From a virus: 22,104 bases of DNA. The notes beneath the pieces were generated by a model. It saw nothing but the letters and a program-made list of their open reading frames with translations. It searched no databases and had not been told where the DNA came from. The position numbers and the translations under genes are program-made. Location: positions 1 through 22,104 of the IMG/VR virus record IMGVR_UViG_3300042907_000215; one strand, written 5' to 3'. Numbering within the stretch: position 1 is the first letter of the stretch; each line of letters opens with the position of its first letter. This document shows positions 4,356 through 15,795 of this stretch, in pieces.

Positions 4356-4991
4356 TTAAACCTCTTCCAGCGATACCGTAATATCCCAAAGATCATGATT
4401 GCTTTGTCCACGCTTAGATACTGTATATGAAAAATCAGAAACGTAAACTTGAACAATTTGGTTATACTGTTCTAAATGTGTATATGGTGCTGAAGTTCCG
4501 TCTTGTACATAGTTATTAAATTTGTCATAGGCTAGAAACATCCAAAATGGTCCCGTGTGGTTTTCATACCAGTCTAGCATTTCTACTCCGCCTGCGCCAC
4601 CATCAACGGTGTATTCGGGGCTTTGTGATGTCATACCAGAGCCTGCTCCAGTAGTAGCCCAGTTTGGTACAGAATAATAAGATCTTGATGGTAGATTGTT
4701 CCAACCTACACTTAAAGTATTTTTATCAGCAATATGAAAAGACCTCATATTTCCATTAATCATTCTTTGCCTTTGTTCAATTCTTTCTGTTTTAAATTGA
4801 AGTGGGCTGCGATTGTGATCAGATAAGATTAAAAATTTGTTAAGATTAGTAGTCTCTGTAGTATATGCTCCTATTTCAAATCCTTCTGGTACGTACATTC
4901 CATTTTCTAAAGTCCCTGGATTTTCTGACCATAGGATTCCTTGTGGTCTAGCATAACGCTTTCTTCCACTCATATATGCTGCGGTAGCCAT
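4356..4991 (-). CDS. Distal tail-like minor tail protein
   Basis: This 211-residue protein starts at an ATG that shares one base with the tape measure stop (TAATG), indicating translational coupling. I see no signal peptide or membrane segment. It is rich in Trp and Tyr, with stretches such as GPFWMFLAYDKFNNYVQDG and DLWDITVSLEEV that suggest a beta-sandwich. In siphophages the gene just after the tape measure usually encodes the distal tail protein, which joins the end of the tail tube to the tip. Size and place fit that role, but I recognise no diagnostic motif, so the assignment rests mainly on synteny. It could instead be another minor tail protein. Confidence 0.75.
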   Translation of the reverse strand: MATAAYMSGRKRYARPQGILWSENPGTLENGMYVPEGFEIGAYTTETTNLNKFLILSDHNRSPLQFKTERIEQRQRMINGNMRSFHIADKNTLSVGWNNLPSRSYYSVPNWATTGAGSGMTSQSPEYTVDGGAGGVEMLDWYENHTGPFWMFLAYDKFNNYVQDGTSAPYTHLEQYNQIVQVYVSDFSYTVSKRGQSNHDLWDITVSLEEV

Positions 4992-7900
4992 TAGAAACTC
5001 CTAATTCTTTGATTATCAACTTGTTTAATTTGATTAATAACGCTACGTGCAATATCATTTGGATTTGCACCACTATTACTCACATTAACGCTAAGGTTAT
5101 AATTATACAGGGTTTTGGAATTATTTACTGCTGTTTTTGATCCATTAGAATTTCTAATAGAAGAAGACATTGAATCAGGCGATTTAAAAGTTGGTGAATT
5201 TATAGCGCTAAGTAGTGGGCCAAATCTTTGAGTTGCTTTTCTATTTACTATAAACTCTCCAGGAGTAAGCATTGCAGGAACTGTATCAGTACCCCTAGCA
5301 AATCCACCAGATGCCATGTATTTGGGAACCATTCCACCCATATTTCCATATTTAATTTTATAATCTCTTTCAGCATTTGCTGCTGCTAAAACTAATGGAG
5401 AGTTAATATTTAAATGTGCAAGTGCTTTTTGATATGGGGCTTGTGCTGCCTTTATTGCTGCTGCTTGTTTTGCTGCTGCTGCTGCTGCATTTGCCTCTAT
5501 ACCACGAAGTGATTGTGCATCAACTGCTGTTTGTGTTTTTCCTGCTTTTGCAGCAGCCGCTGCTTGTGCTGCTTTTTGTGCTGCTGCAGCATCTGCTGCT
5601 GCTTTTACATCTGCTTGTTTACCTCTACCCATTGCGCCTGCAATATCAAATGCTGGAGCAGGTATATCCATTTTGGTAACTTTTGTAAGTGCTGCTTTTT
5701 GTTTGTCTGCAGTTACTGCATCTGCTGCTGCTTGTGCTTTTGCTTCGTTGTTTTTAACTCCAGCAAGCATACTTACATAATCAAATACTAAAGGATTTTT
5801 ATTTATTGCTGGATCTATTCTTTCAAGTTTTTTAATTGCATCTGATTGTTTTGTTGCAGTTATTTCATCTGCTATTCCTTTTGCAGTTGATTCTTTTTGT
5901 TTTTCTTGACCAAGTAAACTTACATAATCAAATACTAAAGGATCTTTGTTTATTGCTGGATCTATGTTTTCAAGTTTTTTAGTTGCTTCTGATTGTTTTG
6001 CATTCATTAATAGTATTGCTTGCATACTGTGGGCATAAATACCATTCATTTCTGCAACTTTAAGACTTACTCTCTCTCCTGCATCTGCATTTGTTTTTGC
6101 ATGTGCTTCTGCTGCTTTTACTGCAGCAAGAGCCTCTGCTGCTTTCATTTTATTTTCATTTGTAACTTTAGTTTGATGATCTGCCATAGCAACGGTTATG
6201 TTAGTTTTTGTTTGTTCATGTGTTTCTAATATTTGTTGAAAATTACGCTGTCTTGCTTCATCTTTAGCATTTGCAACATCCATAGCAGTTGTAATTTCTT
6301 TTGCTGGGGATGACACACTTATGTTAATGTTTGATCCTGAAACACTAACTGATGCTTTTCCAGATCCACCAGTTGGTCCACCAGTTGATCCACCAGTTGG
6401 TCCACCAGTTGATCCACCAGTTGGTCCACCAGTTGGTCCATTTGGTGTATTAGTAGTTTTAGTTGGTAGTGTTGTACCTTTAGGAGTAGGTCTTGATCCT
6501 GGATCTTTTCCAATACCGGCAAGGTAGCGACCAAAAGCACTTGCCCAAGTATCCATTGCTGCTGCATTTGCAATAAGTGCGTCCGTTTGGGCTTTAAGAT
6601 ATGCTGGATCCATAAAATTTTGACCAGTTTTTTGAACTGCTGCGGTAAGGTCTTTATTAAACTGTACCATTGCTTTATCTACTTTGAGTGAAGCAGCAGT
6701 TGTTGCTGTTGTAATTCCTTCGGCAGATTGTGAAATTAACAATGCTAGTTGTTCGTCATCAGCCTTAAACCCAGCAGCAATTGCAAGTCTATTAGCCTCT
6801 GCTACTCCTACTGCTTGTGCTTTTGTATATCCACCAATTTTCTTTAAATTTTCATCAATTTTTATAAATCTTAATCTAATCTTTTCATCAACATCAACTA
6901 ATTCTTCATTAAGTATTTTGCTGCTATCTTCAAGTTGTTTTCTAGTTTGCCCTGCTGGACTTGTAACACCTTTAATAGCATTTTCTTTTGCTTTTTGTGT
7001 TGCTTCCATTCTTGTTTTTGCATTTTTTGCAATCTGTGCATTTCTATATTCTTGCATTGCAGATGCTGCTGCAGCCATATCTCCACTTGCAAGAGCAGAA
7101 GCAATGTCCATTTTTTTAGATTGAAGTTCATTTGATTGCTCTTGTAGTTTATTAATTTCTTCAAGTGCGGCTATTTGTGCATCGTATCTTTCATTTATTT
7201 TATCTTCTTGTCTTGTAATTAATTCTAATGCATATGCATTATCTGCTAACTTATTTGTTGCTGCGCTTTTTTGAAGAATATATTCATTCTCAACTAGTTT
7301 TTCTTGTAGTGCAGCATAAGCCATTAATGCTTCATTTTTCATGCTTTGTCTTACAAGCGCATCTTGTTGAGCAATGGTTGTAACTCTATCGTATTTTTCT
7401 TCTGCTTTATTAACTGCAGTTTGGCTTGCTATAATTTCATCTAATGCTTTTCCTTTAAGTTTTCCATTAATTATTTGTTTGTTTGTAGAATTATTTGCAG
7501 CAATTTCCATTGCCACTTCATAAGAAACTCCTTTTTGTCTTAAAATATTTACTGCTTTAGTTTTGTCTGCTAACTCCTGCATCCTTTTAGCATTGTCTGC
7601 TACAAGATCGCCAGTAAATATTGCACTAAGAACTTTATTTAATACTGCTGCATCTTTTCCTATTTTTAAAATTCCATCTTTTATAGATAATCCAAATTTA
7701 CTAAAATTTTTCTGAATGTCTTCTGGAGACAACCCTTTAATATAATCAACAAACTCTGTTCCAACTTTTTTAGACTTTAATAATTGATTAGCAATTCCGT
7801 TAAATGCGTTAAACCCTCCACCTTTTTTAATTGGATTATTCATTGCTTTTCTTAATGCATTCATTCCGCCTAATGCATCAATAGATGCTTGTTGTACAAG

Positions 7901-10900
7901 TTTAAGTTTTTTAGCCATATCATCAAAGGTTGTATCTCTTTCTTTTTTAACAGCAGGAGTAGTAGGTCCAGTGCCACCACCAAAAGATGTATCAGACGTT
8001 GTTTCAGTAACCTTTTGACCTATTGCTTCTCTGTATTTAGCAAGTTGTGCTGGCAATGATAATTTGCTATATTGAGCCCCGCCATATTTTCCAGTTTCTT
8101 TTTGCCATTGTAAAAAGTTTTTATCTTTCATTAATATTTCATTGTCATATGTTAATAATGTTCTAATTGTTGAAAGGTATGTATTACGTTGTTCTGGACT
8201 TGTTAATTTCTTTAAGTATTCTGGATCAACTGTTCCAATAAACTTTGGTTCAATTTCAGAAAGTATCTTTGTAGTAAAGACTCCTTTATTGTCTTCAATT
8301 GCTTTTAAATCTTTTGAAAGTTCTTTTTGTGCTTCTGGATTTTTTAAAAGAGTTTCTGTTTCAAGATCGAGTTCAAGAACTCCACCTAACCTAGAGAACT
8401 TTTGCATCATTGTAAGAAATTCATCTGCATCCTTACCTTTTTTAGTTCCTAGTTGAAGCATAAAATCAGATTGCAAACTTTCAATTGGTTTTCCATTTGA
8501 ATCTTGAAATGCCTGAACAATATCTAATGCTGCAGCACCATCTTCTCCACCTAATTTAGTCATAATAGCAACTGTTTGTTGAAGATCTTCTTTCTTTGAA
8601 AATGTATTAAAAAGTTTAATAATTTCTGATGGGGCTATTTCTCCAGCACTTAGTTGAAGTTTAAGTCCTGCAACTTGAGTATCTTTTAAATTGCCCGTTT
8701 TTATTGCTTCTCCTAACATATCTTTTGATGCTCCAACAAAACCTTCTTCAGTTGTGCCTTTATATTTTTTTGTAACTGCTTTATCAATTGCAGTATTTAC
8801 TGAATTTCTTGTATTACCTTTTGTTGACTCATATGATTTTAAAACTGACTCTCTTTGTTTTAATCGTTCGGCATCAAGAATTGCTCTATTTTTATCATAT
8901 TTGTCATCTAATTGTTTAACTTCTGAAATTTTTCCTTCAATAATAAGTTGTTCTCTTTTTTGTTTATATTGAAGTTCGTATGAATCTATAAGTTGTTTTG
9001 ATTGTTCAAGCATATTTTGATTTTGAACAACAGCAGCACCACTTATTTCTGCAAGTTGTTTATTATATTTTACTTGTGTCTTATATGCAATAAAACCTCC
9101 AGCAAGTCCACCAATTGCTGCACCTGCAGCCGTCCCAATTCCTGCTCCTAGTGCGGTTCCTGCTCCTGGAATTATACTGCCTATTGCGCTTCCAGCCATA
9201 GACCCCGCTTTTGCTCCTATAAGGGCACCTCCTGCAGCGCCTAGTCCTATTTTTGCTCCCATTCCAAGTCCGTTGAAACCACCAAAACCACCTGAACCTT
9301 TAGCCTTTGCATTATTAAATAAAGCAGTTGAAGTTTTGGTAGAATCTTGCATTAGTTTTGTTCTAATTTCAATTCCAGTATCTAAAATATTTTCTCCATT
9401 TTGTCCAAAAATTCCTTGAAGTTCTCCAGCAACTTTAATTCCCATCATTGTGTCACCCATTGCTTGGCCTATATTAGCAGCAATTGAACGAGCCTGCTCT
9501 GAAGTAAGGGCTCCAGATAAAATAGATGTACTAAGTTGTGCTTTTAGATCTTCTGCTACTGATCCTCTGGTATTTTTAGGATCAATAAGTTTTTGTTGAA
9601 ATGCTTTTGCTTGCGCTATTCCACTGGCGCTGTTAACATAATTTTCTCCAAAAGTAGTTTTTCCAGTTACAGCAACAAGCCCACCTCGTGCTGTTTGTCT
9701 TTTTCTGTCCATTATTTGTGTTGAAGTTGCTTTTCCTGAAAACTCTGCATAAGATTGAATTGCTTTAGTGCTTGTTCCAGTTGCTTCTGTTAAGTCCATT
9801 GCAGCATTTTGGGCTTTGTCAAATTCCATTCTTAACTTAACCATTGCTCCTAAAAATGCCATAACTGGAATTGCAAATGCACCTGTTTTTGTACCTAGCA
9901 TTGGGGCAACCATTGACGCTACTCCCATGATGGGCGCAAGCGTCTGGCCAATTTCACCTGCTTTTCCAGGAGCCATAGCCAGCATTCCTGCTGCCATTGT
10001 TCCACCCATTAATCCACCGCTTATTCTTTGAGCACTTGCCCTTCTTCTTTCGGTTGCCATTTGTTTTGCAGTAGGTTGGGCGTTAGCATCTGGTGTGTCT
10101 GGTGTGCCAGATATGGGAGAACTTTGTATTGGCTTTCCATCTGGTCCAAGAAGTCCAGAAGGTGCGGAAGCCACAACGGGAGCAGGTGCTGCGACAGGCG
10201 TATAACGATTAGCAACAGCAGTCTTTCCTTTTTCTACTGCACTTGCTGCAACAGTTCTTGCTTTTTGAGCAGCATTTTTTGTTTTTTCTTTTGCTGCTTG
10301 AATTTTTTCTTGTTTTATTCTTTGTTTTTTATCACTTTCTGATTCCCAATGTCCTGTACCTTCCCAACCATCAGAATCGAGTGGACGCCATGTGTATCCA
10401 GGTCCAGGAGGAGTACCTGTTTTGCCGTCTTCATGCCCTGGAATATTATCAGATATCATGCCATTAATTAAAGCCCCATATTTCTGTGTCATATCTGCTG
10501 GAATAACTGATTCTCCAGGAGACAACATTGCAGGGACTACATCACCCGCACCCTTTGGACCTGGAACACTTACTATTCCGTCTGCAAATTTTCCAACTTT
10601 AACTGGACGCACTCTTGGAGTTATTGGCTTTGGAAATGCTCGATCTCTTAATGAAGCCTTATGTCCTTTTTGACGTTTTTTTAGTGACGCCTTTTCTTCT
10701 TCTTTTCGAATTGCTGCTTCTGTTTTTTTAGGTACAACTTTAGGTTGAACTGCTATGTGGGTTTTATGTAATTCTCTCCAGTCTACAGACCTAGCCTCTT
10801 CAAGTCTTTTTATCATTGAATCGTATGCAATTCGTTCTTGTGGATCAAGAAGGCCAAAAGAAGATATTGTTGCCTTTAATTTAGGAACAATTCTTTCAAT

Positions 10901-13900
10901 TTCTGCTTTCATTAATGTATGATATTCATCAGCAGTCATTGATCGTGCAATTGATGCTGTTGATAATGCAAAATCACTTCGTGCTCTAGAACCAATCGTT
11001 GAAGGGTCAAGCAGATTAATCATTGCTTGATTTTTTAATGAAAGCATTTGTGCAAAATCTCTTTTTCCAGAAGCACTTCCAAATACTCCTGCTGCGCCTA
11101 CATCTGCAACAACATTTCCAGAAAGATTAGATTTTGTAAGATCTTTATCTCCACGAAGAAATGATGCTACCGCTTGTCTAAAGAACTGTTCTTTTGTAAA
11201 TGTTCCAGGCATATCCTGAAACTTAGAATCAACTGGAGACTCTAAAACAATTAATCTTCTGTCTGGATTGGTTGGATCTACCATTGTGCCAATAGTTTGT
11301 TTTGGAGAATCTAGTCCATGCACATCCCTTTGAATTCTTGTACTTCTTTCTTCTGCCATTGCAGATTTTAAATCAATTGCTGGTTTAACAAAAACTTGAG
11401 AGCCACCTGGTTTTTCATAAATACCACCAATTCCAGGAACTGGAAAACTTCTTCCACTTGATTCTGCTATTAGTTTTCCATATTTTGTTGGTGTTGTTTT
11501 GGCAAGTTTACTTGATTGAACTTCTTCATCAATTGCGTCTAATAATAACTGTTGGGTTCTTACTGACTGAACATCGCTAAAAGTATCTGGCATTCCTATA
11601 AATAGTTTTTTAACTTTTGCTTGTGCTTGTTCTTTTTCTCGTTTCTTTTTTAGATATTCTGTAGGAGCCCATGATCCTGGAACCGCAGGTGGCATATTTG
11701 GATCTTTTTTTACTTCTCCTGCTAACCAAGGATTTTTATTAGCCGATGGATTTGCAGTATAGCCAGGTTTAGCAATAGGAACTTGTTGAGCATTAGCAGC
11801 ATTTGGCACACGATCATACATGTCTTCACCTGATATTGCGACTCTTCCAGAACCAGTTTGAACTGTCCAAGTGCTACCATTTGGAAGTGGAATTGACACA
11901 TAATTTACTGAAGTAACTTTTCCTGTGCTTTTTTTTATTCTATCTTTCTTTACTAAAACACCTTTACTTTGTGCTTCTTCTGCCCCAATGTTTACTCTTA
12001 CGTCTTTAATCTTGTTTCTTGATTTTGCAAAAGCATTTTTTAATGATGTACTTTTAATTTTTTCTCTTTCTTCCGCTTCAATCTTTGCAAAGTCCGATGA
12101 CGTAATTTCTGGTGCAACTGCTGGTTGAGGTGCTGGAGGTGGTGGTGGCAAAAGGGCTTTTAATCTATTTGTTATGCGTTCGTCAAAGTCTGCAAGGGCT
12201 GGATCACCCGTTGGAAATTGGCCTGATGCATTGGCATTTTTTAGCGATCCACGCCATTTTTCTGGACCATGTTTTTCAAAATCTTCTAAAAAGTCAGCAA
12301 GTTTTACTGGTTCATTGCCTATCATATCGAAATTAAGTTTTGGACTTTGAGTAAATCCATGCGAGTTTACTATATTTACGGTATGGTTTGGTCCAAAAGT
12401 ATTTTGAATACCTTTAAGTTTTTGAACTAAGCCTGCTCTATCTGCTTGAAATTCTGGAGATCCTTTTTCAATTTCTGCCAATAAGTCTTTAACTGTTACT
12501 TTTTTAAAAGAATCTACGTGAGCAAAATGAGTGCCTTTTGGAGTTCTACCTTGTTCAAATCCTGGAATATTATCAGCAACAATACCTTGAATTAAAGATC
12601 CATATTTTTCACTCATTGGTGCAGGAATTACGGATTCTCCTGGAGAAAGCATTGCAGGAACTATATCGCCTGCGCCTTTAGGGCCTGGAACACTTACTAT
12701 TCCGTCTGCATATTTTCTAGGGGCACCTCCTTTAAATCCTGGCCTCATCATTCCTGGATTTGTTCTTGCAAAGTTTGCTCCTGCTGCAGTTGCTCTTTGA
12801 TATGCTGCTGCAAGAGCATTTGTTGCTGCAACCTCTGATGTAAATGTTTGAATTAATCTTGAATGTGTTTGGTCTAGAGATGATGCAATTGCTGCTGCTT
12901 CCAATTGTTGAGTAGACATATACTGGGTTTGATTTCCAAGTATTTTAGACTGTCCACCAAGACCTAAAAATCCATTTCTTAATGTTAAAAATAATTTAAT
13001 TATATTTGCTGCACCGTTAGCAATTAAACCAAAAGTCATAAGCAGTGCTGGACCAATTAATCCAACTGCTCCAACTAACATCACAATTGCTTTTTTACTT
13101 CCTTCTCCAAGCCCGTTAAATTTTTCTAATATTCTTCCAAAAAACTCTACAATTGGAGTTATTGCTTTTAAGAACTGTTCTCCAACTGGAGCAAGTGCAA
13201 GTTTAAGACTTTCTAATGATTTTTTAAATTTAGTTCCAGTAGCATTTTCTACTTTTGCAAGTTCTCTTTCTGACAAAATTGCAAGTTCTTCTACTGAGGC
13301 ACCTGCTAAATTTAATGTTCTAGATGCTTGAGTTCCATCTTTAGTTATGTTTTGAAACAAAGTTGATAGTCTTGAGAATTGAAATTTTCCAAATAGTTGT
13401 TCAATTGCTCTTGCTCTGTTTAAGGGATCAAGTGTGTCAAGTGCTTGTGCAAACTGTACAACTGTGTTTTTAATATTACCTTTATTTCCTTCAACAATAC
13501 CGTTAATATTTATTCCAAGATCAGCAAGAAATCCTGCTGCTTTTTTAGAGGGGTTAATTAGTGACGCAAGTCCAGATTTAAGTGCGTTGGCGCCTTCTGA
13601 AGCGTTAATACCACCCTCTTTCATGGCAGTCATAAAGAATGCAAGATCTTCTACGTCTCCGCCTAACTGTCTAATTACTGGTGCTGCTTTTGGAATTGCA
13701 ATAGTTAAATCTTCAATATTTAAAACTGTTTGGTTTTCTACAGCGTTAAGAAAATCAATTTTTCCTTTTAATTCATCTGCTGCTATTCCAAATGCATTTG
13801 TTAAAGAAATTGTTGTTTCTAATGCTTGATTTTGTTCAATGTTTCCAAGAACTGCAAGTCTGGTTGCTTGAGAAACTTGTGCTAAAAGATCTGAACCCAT

Positions 13901-14716
13901 TTTTCCACTTGCAGCAGCGTCTGCTGCCATTTCCATTGTTTTTTCAATTGCAACACCATATTTTAAAAATTCTTTTGCTAAAAGTTGCACATCTTTTAAT
14001 GCCTTGTCTGTTTCTGTGGAAGAAGTAAACATTTCACCATAAACACGTTTAAACCTAATTGCTTGTTTTTCTAATTCCATAAATGTTTTTGATGCTGTTG
14101 TACCAAGCATTGCAAGAGGTACTGTAAAACCAACCATTAACTGACGGCCAGCCCATTGTGTATTCTTACCAAAATTTAAAAGGTTAGTAGAACCTTGTTT
14201 TAACAACTGTCCAAACAATTGTTGTTTCTGTGCAGCAAGAGCAGTCTTTGTTGCTAGATTGTCCATATCCAACGCAAGTGGTCTTATTGCTATTGATTGA
14301 ATTGCACCATTTGCTGTTCTACCCATTTTAAGATACTGGGTTTGCATTGTTTTAAGGCGTTCTTCTGATACCTTGCCAATTGTGTCATACTCTGATTTAA
14401 AAAGTCTTCCAAATGTTTTTGTTGCACCACCAGCATATCTAAAATATTCTCTAGTGGAAAATTTGTTTCTTTCTAATGAATCAGTAAAACTGTCAGCAGT
14501 ACTTCTAACTTCTTGTAGACTGGCTCTAAATTTTCCAGTAGCATTTATTGAATTTATAAGATTGGTTTGTAAACCAGCCTGTGCTTTTGCTGCTTGTGCA
14601 CTTGTTGCTGCAATTGAAGAATGAAAATTAGATAATTGTCTTTGAAGTGCTTTTAGTTGTGCAAGTGCTTGAGAGGCATCAAGATTAACTTGAATATTAG
14701 ATTGTACATCAGCCAC
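4991..14716 (-). CDS. Giant tape measure protein (3241 aa) with embedded modules
   Basis: The start is GTG at 14716, with GAGGTG (14728-14723) six bases upstream. Role: sets tail length and is expected to be ejected ahead of the DNA. Layout by residue: N-terminal coiled coil 1-175; TP901-type tape measure core about 178-560 (GKNTQWAGRQLMVGFTVPLAML, then tail-fibre-independent helical repeats); hydrophobic segment 540-577; repeat 1 at 668-723; Pro run near 855; kinase-like segment about 1075-1290; repeat 2 at 1376-1431; hydrophobic region 1563-1626; Gly-zipper region 1815-1876; coiled coil about 2500-2560; GPTGG linker 2759-2783; tandem 49-residue repeats 2907-3047; repeat 3 at 3132-3177. It is far longer than most tape measures (typically 700-2000 residues). 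About 1.5 angstrom per residue would imply a tail near 490 nm, less if the inserted modules do not count. Confidence 0.93.
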   Translation of the reverse strand: MADVQSNIQVNLDASQALAQLKALQRQLSNFHSSIAATSAQAAKAQAGLQTNLINSINATGKFRASLQEVRSTADSFTDSLERNKFSTREYFRYAGGATKTFGRLFKSEYDTIGKVSEERLKTMQTQYLKMGRTANGAIQSIAIRPLALDMDNLATKTALAAQKQQLFGQLLKQGSTNLLNFGKNTQWAGRQLMVGFTVPLAMLGTTASKTFMELEKQAIRFKRVYGEMFTSSTETDKALKDVQLLAKEFLKYGVAIEKTMEMAADAAASGKMGSDLLAQVSQATRLAVLGNIEQNQALETTISLTNAFGIAADELKGKIDFLNAVENQTVLNIEDLTIAIPKAAPVIRQLGGDVEDLAFFMTAMKEGGINASEGANALKSGLASLINPSKKAAGFLADLGININGIVEGNKGNIKNTVVQFAQALDTLDPLNRARAIEQLFGKFQFSRLSTLFQNITKDGTQASRTLNLAGASVEELAILSERELAKVENATGTKFKKSLESLKLALAPVGEQFLKAITPIVEFFGRILEKFNGLGEGSKKAIVMLVGAVGLIGPALLMTFGLIANGAANIIKLFLTLRNGFLGLGGQSKILGNQTQYMSTQQLEAAAIASSLDQTHSRLIQTFTSEVAATNALAAAYQRATAAGANFARTNPGMMRPGFKGGAPRKYADGIVSVPGPKGAGDIVPAMLSPGESVIPAPMSEKYGSLIQGIVADNIPGFEQGRTPKGTHFAHVDSFKKVTVKDLLAEIEKGSPEFQADRAGLVQKLKGIQNTFGPNHTVNIVNSHGFTQSPKLNFDMIGNEPVKLADFLEDFEKHGPEKWRGSLKNANASGQFPTGDPALADFDERITNRLKALLPPPPPAPQPAVAPEITSSDFAKIEAEEREKIKSTSLKNAFAKSRNKIKDVRVNIGAEEAQSKGVLVKKDRIKKSTGKVTSVNYVSIPLPNGSTWTVQTGSGRVAISGEDMYDRVPNAANAQQVPIAKPGYTANPSANKNPWLAGEVKKDPNMPPAVPGSWAPTEYLKKKREKEQAQAKVKKLFIGMPDTFSDVQSVRTQQLLLDAIDEEVQSSKLAKTTPTKYGKLIAESSGRSFPVPGIGGIYEKPGGSQVFVKPAIDLKSAMAEERSTRIQRDVHGLDSPKQTIGTMVDPTNPDRRLIVLESPVDSKFQDMPGTFTKEQFFRQAVASFLRGDKDLTKSNLSGNVVADVGAAGVFGSASGKRDFAQMLSLKNQAMINLLDPSTIGSRARSDFALSTASIARSMTADEYHTLMKAEIERIVPKLKATISSFGLLDPQERIAYDSMIKRLEEARSVDWRELHKTHIAVQPKVVPKKTEAAIRKEEEKASLKKRQKGHKASLRDRAFPKPITPRVRPVKVGKFADGIVSVPGPKGAGDVVPAMLSPGESVIPADMTQKYGALINGMISDNIPGHEDGKTGTPPGPGYTWRPLDSDGWEGTGHWESESDKKQRIKQEKIQAAKEKTKNAAQKARTVAASAVEKGKTAVANRYTPVAAPAPVVASAPSGLLGPDGKPIQSSPISGTPDTPDANAQPTAKQMATERRRASAQRISGGLMGGTMAAGMLAMAPGKAGEIGQTLAPIMGVASMVAPMLGTKTGAFAIPVMAFLGAMVKLRMEFDKAQNAAMDLTEATGTSTKAIQSYAEFSGKATSTQIMDRKRQTARGGLVAVTGKTTFGENYVNSASGIAQAKAFQQKLIDPKNTRGSVAEDLKAQLSTSILSGALTSEQARSIAANIGQAMGDTMMGIKVAGELQGIFGQNGENILDTGIEIRTKLMQDSTKTSTALFNNAKAKGSGGFGGFNGLGMGAKIGLGAAGGALIGAKAGSMAGSAIGSIIPGAGTALGAGIGTAAGAAIGGLAGGFIAYKTQVKYNKQLAEISGAAVVQNQNMLEQSKQLIDSYELQYKQKREQLIIEGKISEVKQLDDKYDKNRAILDAERLKQRESVLKSYESTKGNTRNSVNTAIDKAVTKKYKGTTEEGFVGASKDMLGEAIKTGNLKDTQVAGLKLQLSAGEIAPSEIIKLFNTFSKKEDLQQTVAIMTKLGGEDGAAALDIVQAFQDSNGKPIESLQSDFMLQLGTKKGKDADEFLTMMQKFSRLGGVLELDLETETLLKNPEAQKELSKDLKAIEDNKGVFTTKILSEIEPKFIGTVDPEYLKKLTSPEQRNTYLSTIRTLLTYDNEILMKDKNFLQWQKETGKYGGAQYSKLSLPAQLAKYREAIGQKVTETTSDTSFGGGTGPTTPAVKKERDTTFDDMAKKLKLVQQASIDALGGMNALRKAMNNPIKKGGGFNAFNGIANQLLKSKKVGTEFVDYIKGLSPEDIQKNFSKFGLSIKDGILKIGKDAAVLNKVLSAIFTGDLVADNAKRMQELADKTKAVNILRQKGVSYEVAMEIAANNSTNKQIINGKLKGKALDEIIASQTAVNKAEEKYDRVTTIAQQDALVRQSMKNEALMAYAALQEKLVENEYILQKSAATNKLADNAYALELITRQEDKINERYDAQIAALEEINKLQEQSNELQSKKMDIASALASGDMAAAASAMQEYRNAQIAKNAKTRMEATQKAKENAIKGVTSPAGQTRKQLEDSSKILNEELVDVDEKIRLRFIKIDENLKKIGGYTKAQAVGVAEANRLAIAAGFKADDEQLALLISQSAEGITTATTAASLKVDKAMVQFNKDLTAAVQKTGQNFMDPAYLKAQTDALIANAAAMDTWASAFGRYLAGIGKDPGSRPTPKGTTLPTKTTNTPNGPTGGPTGGSTGGPTGGSTGGPTGGSGKASVSVSGSNINISVSSPAKEITTAMDVANAKDEARQRNFQQILETHEQTKTNITVAMADHQTKVTNENKMKAAEALAAVKAAEAHAKTNADAGERVSLKVAEMNGIYAHSMQAILLMNAKQSEATKKLENIDPAINKDPLVFDYVSLLGQEKQKESTAKGIADEITATKQSDAIKKLERIDPAINKNPLVFDYVSMLAGVKNNEAKAQAAADAVTADKQKAALTKVTKMDIPAPAFDIAGAMGRGKQADVKAAADAAAAQKAAQAAAAAKAGKTQTAVDAQSLRGIEANAAAAAAKQAAAIKAAQAPYQKALAHLNINSPLVLAAANAERDYKIKYGNMGGMVPKYMASGGFARGTDTVPAMLTPGEFIVNRKATQRFGPLLSAINSPTFKSPDSMSSSIRNSNGSKTAVNNSKTLYNYNLSVNVSNSGANPNDIARSVINQIKQVDNQRIRSF
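5186..5323 (-). repeat. Tape measure VPAMLTPGE repeat, copy 3
   Basis: Residues 3132-3177 of the tape measure contain FARGTDTVPAMLTPGEFIVN followed by an RKATQRFG segment. This motif is common near the C-terminus of tape measure proteins. It is a diverged relative of the two internal copies at residues 668 and 1376 and is the one in the usual C-terminal place. Confidence 0.7.
5576..5998 (-). repeat. Three tandem 49-residue repeats in the tape measure C-terminal part
   Basis: Units begin at K2907, K2956 and K3005 (147 bases apart). Units 1 and 2 share KKLE(N/R)IDPAINK(D/N)PLVFDYVS and are nearly identical in DNA over about 63 bases (plus-strand starts 5771 and 5918). Unit 3 is shorter (43 residues) and diverged, keeping the KQ..A start and the Ala-rich end. 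An in-frame duplication with one recent copy is the simplest reading. Confidence 0.85.
6366..6437 (-). repeat. Six tandem 12-bp units encoding a Gly-Pro-Thr/Ser linker
   Basis: The plus strand reads six perfect-length copies of CCACCAGTTGGT or CCACCAGTTGAT. On the coding strand they give (P/S)TGG units at residues about 2760-2783 of the tape measure. The unit is a multiple of three, so copy-number change keeps the frame. It probably forms a flexible linker between the helical part and the C-terminal part. Confidence 0.9.
10424..10591 (-). repeat. Tape measure VPAMLSPGE repeat, copy 2
   Basis: Residues 1376-1431 read KFADGIVSVPGPKGAGDVVP and continue with AMLSPGESVIPA. They match residues 668-723 at about 44 of 56 positions with no gap. 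A 27-base stretch (10560-10586) is identical in DNA to 12684-12710. The two copies are offset by exactly 708 codons. Confidence 0.9.
12548..12715 (-). repeat. Tape measure VPAMLSPGE repeat, copy 1
   Basis: Residues 668-723 read KYADGIVSVPGPKGAGDIVP and continue with AMLSPGESVIPA. This copy follows the TP901-type core and hydrophobic segment, and opens the long insertion that ends at copy 2. Confidence 0.9.
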
Positions 14717-14742: not shown

Positions 14743-15060
14743 TTATAGATTTAACAAAGAAGCGTCTTGAAGTTTAACTCCAGATGCTGCTTCAACAATC
14801 TTATAGACTGTTGGTAAATCTAAATTGTCTTCAAGATCCTTGACATTTTCTGCCAATTCTGGTTTATATTGCTGCATAGCAATCAAAACACATTCCATAA
14901 GAATGTTCATTGATTTCTCGTTGTCTTCTGCCACTGCTGCAATACCTTCAAATTTCTTCATAAATGGACGAAGTAATGAGATCTTGAGTGGTCTTACTGC
15001 GATCTTTGTACCATCAATAAGTACAACGGTATCTTCGTCGGTTTTTGCTGTTGTTGCCAT
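14743..15060 (-). CDS. Tail assembly chaperone, G-only form
   Basis: This 105-residue protein starts at an ATG behind AAAGGAG. It aligns with the N-terminal half of the 229-residue protein encoded just upstream: both begin MAT and share PLKI, an FM..F motif, ES..IL.EC, M.QY.P.L, DL.T.YKI and an E.A.G.K end. Two members of this family sit at the classic tail chaperone position between the tube protein and the tape measure. Chaperone G coats the tape measure during tail assembly and is not kept in the virion (family knowledge). No T domain follows: the gene ends in TAA and the tape measure begins 26 bases later, so frameshifting here cannot make a G-T product. It has its own promoter motif and uses more C/G-ending codons (AAG, GAC, ATC, AAC) than its paralogue, suggesting higher expression. 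Confidence 0.85.
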   Translation of the reverse strand: MATTAKTDEDTVVLIDGTKIAVRPLKISLLRPFMKKFEGIAAVAEDNEKSMNILMECVLIAMQQYKPELAENVKDLEDNLDLPTVYKIVEAASGVKLQDASLLNL

Positions 15061-15105: not shown

Positions 15106-15795
15106 TTATTTTTTAGTTAAATCTTCGTAATCTAAGCCCATTCCAATACCAAACCCTGCCCTTGCTGCATTAGGACCTTGTAATGATAGTACATCATTGC
15201 CATCACTTGTTTGTCCACCACTAAAGACTCTTGCTTTCATGTCTTCCCATTCTTTTTGTCCCTTGCCACTTTCAGAATTATTTTCTAAATCTACCCCTTG
15301 AATTGCTGCTAAGAATTTTTTTTCTTCATAATCTAATTCTCTTTTTGAAGACAAGGTTTGCATAAGTTCTGGTATTGACAAAGAAGTCTCTAGTTCTTCA
15401 TAGTTTTTCCATATACCCAAAGTAAATACTTCAGACTCTAATTTGGCTAAATCTAAATCAAACCAACCTTCTTCTTTTTCTTTTGATTGTTCTTTAATCT
15501 CTACTTCTGAAGTTGAATTAAATTTAATACCCGCTGCTATTTCAATAATCTTATAAAGTGTATTAAGGTCAATATGATCATCTAGATTTAAAAATAAATC
15601 TGGGCTATATTGTTTCATACAAACTTTACAGCATTCTAACAAGATGTCAATAGATTCTTCATCATTTTTTGAGTTTTCAATAAGCACAAAAATATCCATA
15701 AACTCCCTCATATACTTAATCTTTAAAGGAGAACATGAGATTGTCTGATCATTAAGTAATAAAATGTCTAAAGTATTAAAAACTTTTGTAGCCAT
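15106..15795 (-). CDS. Tail assembly chaperone, G-T-like fusion in one frame
   Basis: This 229-residue protein has two parts. Residues 1-95 are homologous to the G-only chaperone downstream. Residues about 110-229 look like a T domain (LGIWKNYEELETSLSIPELM, KKFLAAIQGVDL, QKEWEDMKARVFSGG, AGFGIGMGLDYEDL), which in related phages is normally reached by ribosomal frameshifting; here it is continuous. An acidic/Lys-rich linker (residues 98-110) joins the halves. The start at 15795 is supported by the shared MAT N-terminus. No Shine-Dalgarno precedes it, and a TGCTAAAAT motif ends six bases before the ATG, so the mRNA may be leaderless. Codons are AT-rich (TTT, TTA, AAA). Expected role: bind the tape measure (G part) and recruit tube protein (T part). 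Confidence 0.83.
   Translation of the reverse strand: MATKVFNTLDILLLNDQTISCSPLKIKYMREFMDIFVLIENSKNDEESIDILLECCKVCMKQYSPDLFLNLDDHIDLNTLYKIIEIAAGIKFNSTSEVEIKEQSKEKEEGWFDLDLAKLESEVFTLGIWKNYEELETSLSIPELMQTLSSKRELDYEEKKFLAAIQGVDLENNSESGKGQKEWEDMKARVFSGGQTSDGNDVLSLQGPNAARAGFGIGMGLDYEDLTKK

Follow-up and report, generated by a model that had tools for sequence, protein, structure and literature searches.

Solved enzymes with kinase-like folds are among the closest described counterparts of the element considered here, and comprise the spore coat protein kinase CotH (5jd9/5jda), the toxin kinases HipA and HipT, the PI3/PI4 kinases, MavQ and CtkA. The element itself is a predicted kinase-fold domain within the tail tape measure protein (TMP) encoded by the IMG/VR virus record IMGVR_UViG_3300042907_000215. 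The whole stretch analysed, hereafter the window, spans the 22,104 bases of this virus record, and its head and tail genes lie on the minus strand.

Published examples exist of enzymes that are joined to phage head proteins and presumed to be injected (PMC5512222, PMC9503650), among them fusions with head-packaged MuF and portal proteins (PMC9503650). The polyvalent-protein kinases and MuF-fused phage effectors treated in PMC5512222 are likewise enzymes within virion or conjugation proteins, for which entry into the host is presumed. There, the polyvalent-protein kinases are described as having lost the whole C-terminal subdomain, unlike the domain described here, in which C-lobe helices are present between model residues 188 and 283 and the carrier is a TMP; the term “tape measure” does not occur in the main text of PMC5512222. 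No TMP-borne kinase-fold enzyme was found in the full-text literature, preprints and most subscription papers being outside the reach of that search, and passages of PMC8876498 and PMC7824862 are unrelated to such a kinase.

We propose, with a probability of about 0.5, that TMP residues 1040-1322 form a complete two-lobed enzyme of atypical kinase fold, carried as a modular cargo of the TMP, ejected with it and modifying a host target early in infection. Computation supports the fold, the invariant active-site set, the optional presence of the domain, the variation of the segment that carries it and the selection acting on it. The use of adenosine triphosphate (ATP) and catalysis, read from the fold, are quite probable, while the odds are even that the enzyme is delivered to the host cytoplasm and acts there, as argued from TMP biology.

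A predicted two-lobed kinase fold and its invariant residues

An earlier note on this DNA had placed a kinase-like fold at 10850-11500, within the TMP, and had quoted a series of motifs. All of them are found at the TMP residues that it gave, in an open reading frame (ORF) of 3241 aa on the minus strand (14716-4991). The interval lies inside the domain but is too short, the span being ~1040-1322 in residues and 10751-11599 in window positions. The domain and its candidate active-site elements are as follows.

10751..11599, minus strand: predicted kinase-fold domain, TMP residues ~1040-1322 (64-sequence family alignment, AlphaFold2, fold matches)
11402..11434, minus strand: GIGGIYEKPGG, residues 1095-1105, turn and strand 2, candidate glycine loop (model strand 59-62; G1098 in 268 of 269 loci, with one gap)
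11384..11386, minus strand: K1111, candidate ATP-binding lysine on strand 3, within VFVKPA at residues 1108-1113 (model strand 68-74; 269 of 269 loci, and 31 of 31 sampled through the TMP N-terminus)
11351..11353, minus strand: E1122, candidate helix-C glutamate pairing with K1111 (model helix 77-92; 269 of 269)
11228..11254, minus strand: LIVLESPVD, residues 1155-1163, end of strand 5 and hinge-like link (model strand 111-122; E1159 in 264 and S1160 in 267 of 269)
11126..11155, minus strand: RGDKDLTKSN, residues 1188-1197, catalytic-loop-like, with R1188, D1190, D1192 and N1197 invariant (loop directly after model helix 136-149); GDKDLTKSN at residues 1189-1197 holds D1192 and N1197
11102..11104, minus strand: D1205, candidate metal-binding aspartate in a DFG-like place, within ADVGAAG at residues 1204-1210 (269 of 269; two residues past the short model strand 163-164)

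From 64 family sequences below 90% identity, AlphaFold2 produced a confident model of the domain, with a predicted local distance difference test score (pLDDT) of 93.4 and a predicted template modelling score (pTM) of 0.90, which replaced an earlier, poor model made from four sequences (pLDDT 50.4). The modelled N-lobe consists of strands 42-46, 59-62 and 68-74 (with K1111), helix 77-92 (with E1122) and strands 102-108 and 111-122. The latter is followed by the hinge LESPVD, helix 136-149, the RGDKDLTKSN loop, a hairpin (159-160/163-164), D1205 at model residue 166 and the helices of the C-lobe. The predicted architecture is two-lobed and kinase-like, with an N-lobe sheet and helix C and a helical C-lobe, and the residue set of the kinase superfamily is found on it: a lysine on strand 3, a glutamate on helix C, an aspartate and an asparagine in the catalytic loop, and an aspartate after the next strands.

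A Foldseek search of the PDB ranks HipA (2wiu) first with an E-value of 4.9e-4, followed mostly by kinases. Realignment of the matches gave the highest Z for CotH (12.1; root-mean-square deviation (rmsd) 3.8 over 217 residues), followed by CtkA (10.9), PI4KII (10.2), MavQ (9.8), HipA (4pu5; 9.3), a bacterial kinase (9.2), HipT (9.1) and VPS34 (8.9). Among the 50 realigned entries listed, from which the absence of a family excludes nothing, 48 have titles that refer to kinases, PI3K subunits, HipA/HipT or CotH. We take the remaining two, DrFam20C1 and a fragment of LepB, to be kinase-like as well. The earlier note had proposed a structure prediction and a fold search, and these return a confident model matching HipA, PI4K and related kinase folds.

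Three observations weigh against this reading of the fold. The Foldseek template modelling scores (TM-scores) to solved kinases are low (HipA 0.36, rmsd 14.5), with a single PDB match at E <= 0.001; the better rmsd values derive from the realignment of Foldseek's top 1000; and N1197 and D1205 are separated by 8 residues, which is shorter than what we take to be usual in canonical kinases. The low TM-scores could point to a model artefact, i.e., a generic alpha/beta fold with motifs spaced by chance. However, the pTM of 0.90, the predominance of kinases among the realigned entries and the full order of elements (strand with K, helix with E, hinge, helix, D and N, short hairpin, D) with invariant residues leave that explanation hardly credible. 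A kinase fold for residues ~1040-1322 is supported to the extent given by a confident model, fold matches dominated by kinases and invariant residues on the expected elements.

At K1111, E1122, R1188, D1190, D1192, N1197 and D1205, 269 of 269 loci share the same residue; they represent 154 distinct domain sequences, the locus count including near-identical contigs and some contigs fetched under two ids. Peptide patterns with D1190, D1192 or D1205 in them served to fetch most of these loci, so that the invariance of these positions is partly due to selection, which counts against taking it at face value. The 31 domains (28 distinct) sampled through the TMP N-terminus alone are free of this bias; all seven residues are kept in each of them, and no weaker or degenerate domain copies were found between the score cut-offs in this set. 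The five residues that the note had named (K1111, E1122, D1192, N1197 and D1205) show no variation and occupy the expected kinase elements of the model; R1188 and D1190, which it did not name, are invariant too. Its alternative helix-C glutamate, E1123, does not hold, as glutamate occupies this position in only 8 of 189 rows.

In 132 distinct sequences, 18 of the 281 aligned domain positions are invariant, of which 11 are D, E, K, R, H or N. The domain has 82 residues of these six kinds, and the probability that five random picks would all fall among the 11 invariant ones, as the five residues of the note do, is 1.7e-5, a value that is indicative only since the choice was not random. It could be argued that the domain is a kinase-fold pseudoenzyme or a structural module, binding nothing more than a nucleotide or a host factor, as pseudokinases are generally common. 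This is improbable, however, because the K, E, D, N and D are invariant across the 154 distinct sequences, whose mutual identity falls to ~30%.

Relation to known kinase families

The resemblance to HipA or PI3/4 kinases suggested by the note is found in the fold but not in the sequence. HipA likeness is seen in both fold comparisons (2wiu, E 4.9e-4; 4pu5, Z 9.3), and the HipA/HipT entries listed have Z of 8.4-9.3. The D-x4-N spacing of the catalytic loop is also like that of HipA, as we take the latter to be. However, HipA_C (PF07804) matches none of 26 family members at E <= 5, nor anything in the record, and the absence of a meaningful match in a profile comparison with E. coli HipA (hhalign) adds to the evidence against the reading; HipA as a direct relative is ruled out by sequence. 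CotH is the top solved fold on realignment, but identity is 8-10% and the setting differs, the domain here lying within a phage tail protein. PI3/PI4 kinases, MavQ and CtkA match the fold with Z of 8.4-10.9, but with 7-15% identity. In the same 26 members, neither PF00454 nor PF08757, which we take to be the Pfam accessions of PI3_PI4_kinase and CotH, respectively, gave a match at E <= 5. Judged by sequence, the domain is no member of the HipA, PI3/4-kinase or CotH families.

The rank of PI4KII (Z 10.2) and of the lipid kinase MavQ (Z 9.8) near the top of the realigned entries could suggest a lipid or small-molecule kinase, PI4K- or phosphotransferase-like, acting for example on a host membrane lipid or cell-wall precursors at entry, and the strongly hydrophobic TMP stretch at residues 540-579 is in keeping with it. 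Yet CotH and CtkA rank higher and HipA about equal, and the requirement for ATP makes action outside the membrane unlikely. This possibility is quite improbable.

In Pfam, PHROGs, NCBIfam and PDB sequences, single-sequence and profile searches with the domain matched at chance level only. Designed chlorophyll proteins among the PDB sequences (E 0.0016-0.06) match its C-terminal helices only and were not used.

Among predicted viral structures, BFVD yielded six matches at E <= 0.001, of which five are A0A516M4V9, A0A6J5PWC9 and A0A6J5S481 (TM-scores 0.50-0.52) and A0A6B9L6W7 and R4T6E8 (0.29). Their labels are “ADP ribosyltransferase” for A0A6J5PWC9, “Phage portal protein” for A0A6J5S481, “ADP-ribosyltransferase” for A0A6B9L6W7 (Onyinye) and HHTV-1 for R4T6E8; where a label or neighbourhood is given, these are head/portal-region or ADP-ribosyltransferase proteins and not tape measures. 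HHTV-1 gp13 (L241:9436-12735), equated with R4T6E8 from its length of 1100 aa, is an unannotated haloarchaeal virus protein encoded near a gpF-like gene. It contains LTGNRDIHGGNF, which aligns over the catalytic loop with LRGDKDLTKSNL (hhalign P 0.0011, with a probability of only 20.8). Because gp13 is without relatives beyond its own two records and matches no family, and because the hidden Markov model (HMM) of the domain family does not find it, homology to the kinase domain stays a hint.

Distribution, optional presence and variation

The domain is carried by a protein that the note had called a tape measure protein, which is borne out by a match to PhageMin_Tail in Pfam (E 5.4e-25, residues 254-443) and by nine PHROG tape-measure families (phrog_10030, E 4.8e-92). 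As in siphophages, this long ORF with TMP profiles has genes in the tail-assembly-chaperone position on one side and minor tail genes on the other. The features of the carrier referred to below are:

4991..14716, minus strand: tail tape measure protein, 3241 aa, GTG start, carrying the domain (ORF list, Pfam, PHROGs)
12797..14716, minus strand: conserved N-terminal part of the TMP, residues 1-640 (N-terminus sampling, comparisons)
12617..12697, minus strand: VSVPGPKGAGD...PAMLSPGES motif, first copy, residues 674-700, near the start of the variable segment (sequence)
11717..12574, minus strand: second variable module, residues ~715-1000, with the pattern H-V-G ... G-x-x-K-W-x-x-S (HMM counts)
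10493..10573, minus strand: VSVPGPKGAGD...PAMLSPGES motif, second copy, residues 1382-1408, after the kinase domain (sequence)

Hydrophobic stretches are seen on either side of the cargo segment, at TMP residues 540-579 (12980-13099) and 1589-1630 (9827-9952), the former being strongly membrane-like with a mean hydropathy of up to 2.29 over 19 residues. Before the TMP gene, two adjacent genes (14743-15060 and 15106-15795) each match phrog_10504, whose function is not annotated (E 2.5e-20 and 1.3e-17). Apparently, this pair in the chaperone position represents a duplicated domain in two genes rather than one frameshifted gene. The major capsid protein of the record shares 41-43% identity, across ~81% of its length, with those in 15 listed Streptomyces phage rows, e.g., Wakanda (Stanwilliamsviridae), and the gene order of Wakanda from head to tail is similar to that of the record.

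In IMG/VR, a single-sequence scan found 5 relatives and a 4-sequence alignment 20, while wider profiles found 256, 398 and then 426 related stretches. For the last three scans, and for one through the TMP N-terminus that found at least 589 relatives, the best 80 per scan were examined. The N-terminus of the TMP is kept in 255 of the 269 domain-bearing ORFs. A further 13 begin at the locus end, and the last, in L027, is a separate ORF. The family has so far been seen solely in TMPs. In L027, the kinase domain lies in an ORF of its own (L027:8945-10111) on a contig that also has an ORF with the TMP N-terminus, an arrangement that would be either a split gene or a sequence error. With two domain queries, tblastn found no match in 50,697 phage records, nor was there a domain match in 72,556 plasmid records. 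Two scans of genome contigs from 84,980 species, with one genome each, found no relative, hence no bacterial or prophage source or host could be named.

The presence of the domain was assessed by fetching 80 TMPs with the first 622 TMP residues as query, without regard to the cargo. After leaving out 18 that run off their contig (5 with the domain), 62 complete TMPs remained, of which 26 carry the domain (24 of 55 once identical ones are removed). The median length of the complete TMPs is 3022.5 aa with the domain and 2569.5 aa without it. On a tree of the N-terminal part, presence changes at least 7 times, with 6 changes forced by starred branches; since the 149 rows of this tree combine two samplings, one through the domain and one through the N-terminus, the proportion of carriers on it is meaningless. 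Wakanda (L242), on a very long branch, is among its rows without the domain, and L027 was removed beforehand as a false row of this kind because its kinase lies in another ORF.

TMPs with N-termini up to 89% identical differ in the presence of the domain. For example, L232 (with) and L226 (without) share 84% identity over residues 1-696, and similarity resumes only at residues 1356 and 1062, respectively, at 38%. The domain itself can also differ between close relatives: the N-terminal parts of L234 and L250 are 99% identical, while their kinase domains are 45% identical. In 50-residue windows, the identity of this pair is 1.0 at residues 501-650, 0.14-0.58 at 651-1300 and 0.58-0.92 from 1301 onwards, with the deepest trough (0.14-0.30) at 751-1050, upstream of the domain and into its start. 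N-terminal and kinase identities are only weakly related (Spearman 0.19; 10,296 non-independent pairs). These comparisons suggest that exchange of the domain between TMPs is likely. The borders of the variable segment in L234/L250 speak less clearly for it, the left one being sharp and the right one diffuse, so the difference in this pair may have arisen by fast divergence in place.

The domain is under purifying selection, with a ratio of non-synonymous to synonymous substitution rates of 0.32-0.50 against five relatives. In three distant relatives, it is 53-59% identical, compared with 29-39% for the C-terminal part of the TMP. Two results of these comparisons weigh on the other side: conservation of the TMP N-terminus exceeds that of the domain in 5 of 5 comparisons, and against the close relative L004 the C-terminal part and the domain are both 96% identical.

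The second variable module has no Pfam match of note and was found in 63 ORFs after iteration. In 61 complete TMPs, a count that leaves out the 1404-aa L199, 18 have the kinase only, 8 have both, 10 have the module only and 25 have neither. Other segments occupy residues ~700-1100 of the kinase-less TMPs L181, L183, L198, L192 and L205, in which an S-H-I motif is followed by a stretch containing K-W or W; these segments are possibly other enzymes. Pfam gave no family above the cut-off within the cargo segments of L192, L181 and L198, and a glycine zipper seen in one protein lies beyond the segment itself. Within 450 residues of the domain, a single regular expression found the VPGPKGAGD...PAMLSPGES motif upstream in 8, downstream in 3 and on both sides in 1 of the 31 sampled carriers; with the flanking pair in only one carrier, it is no general segment border.

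Site of action and significance

The proposed enzyme would bind ATP-Mg through K1111, E1122 and D1205 and, by means of D1192 and N1197 of its catalytic loop, transfer a phosphate or, less likely, adenosine monophosphate. It would reside in the tail within the few TMP copies that each virion has, be ejected with them, refold in the host and modify its target there. At infection, TMP copies exit through the tail tip, and a domain that refolds could thereby gain access to the cytoplasm and its ATP. The size of the domain is a difficulty for this route, since 280 folded residues should not fit the tail lumen; the domain would need to be unfolded or to be located at the tip.

Whether the enzyme acts after delivery or in the producing cell is the chief doubt. 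In the latter case, an active kinase-fold enzyme would modify the TMP, the tail chaperones or other virion proteins and thereby regulate assembly or ejection. ATP is present where structural proteins are made, in the cytoplasm during assembly, and the closest solved fold is that of CotH (Z 12.1); CotH kinases act on spore coat proteins, which offers an analogy. However, the domain is absent from 36 of the 62 complete related TMPs, hence assembly does not generally require it, and its divergence between near-identical TMPs is more readily reconciled with an outward-facing target than with a conserved partner in assembly. Action in the producing cell is unlikely, and the optional presence and strong variation of the domain favour a host-facing target over a fixed role in assembly.

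A broader proposal, which we put forward tentatively and hold to be somewhat doubtful, is that the TMPs of a large group of environmental phages related to actinobacteriophages have a cargo bay near residues 700-1350 in which unrelated modules are swapped, that the tail tube serves as a route for effectors, and that the kinase-fold enzyme is the first recognised cargo. In a survey of phage protein mosaicism, genuine recent TMP mosaicism could not be confirmed (PMC10684548). TMPs with near-identical N-termini that have kinase domains of 45% identity, and TMPs with N-termini up to 89% identical that differ in the presence of the domain, are candidate cases of such mosaicism and bear on this gap. 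If the proposed delivery is true, the rulers of tail length would also carry effectors, and natural test pairs would be available in closely related TMPs that differ in having the cargo.

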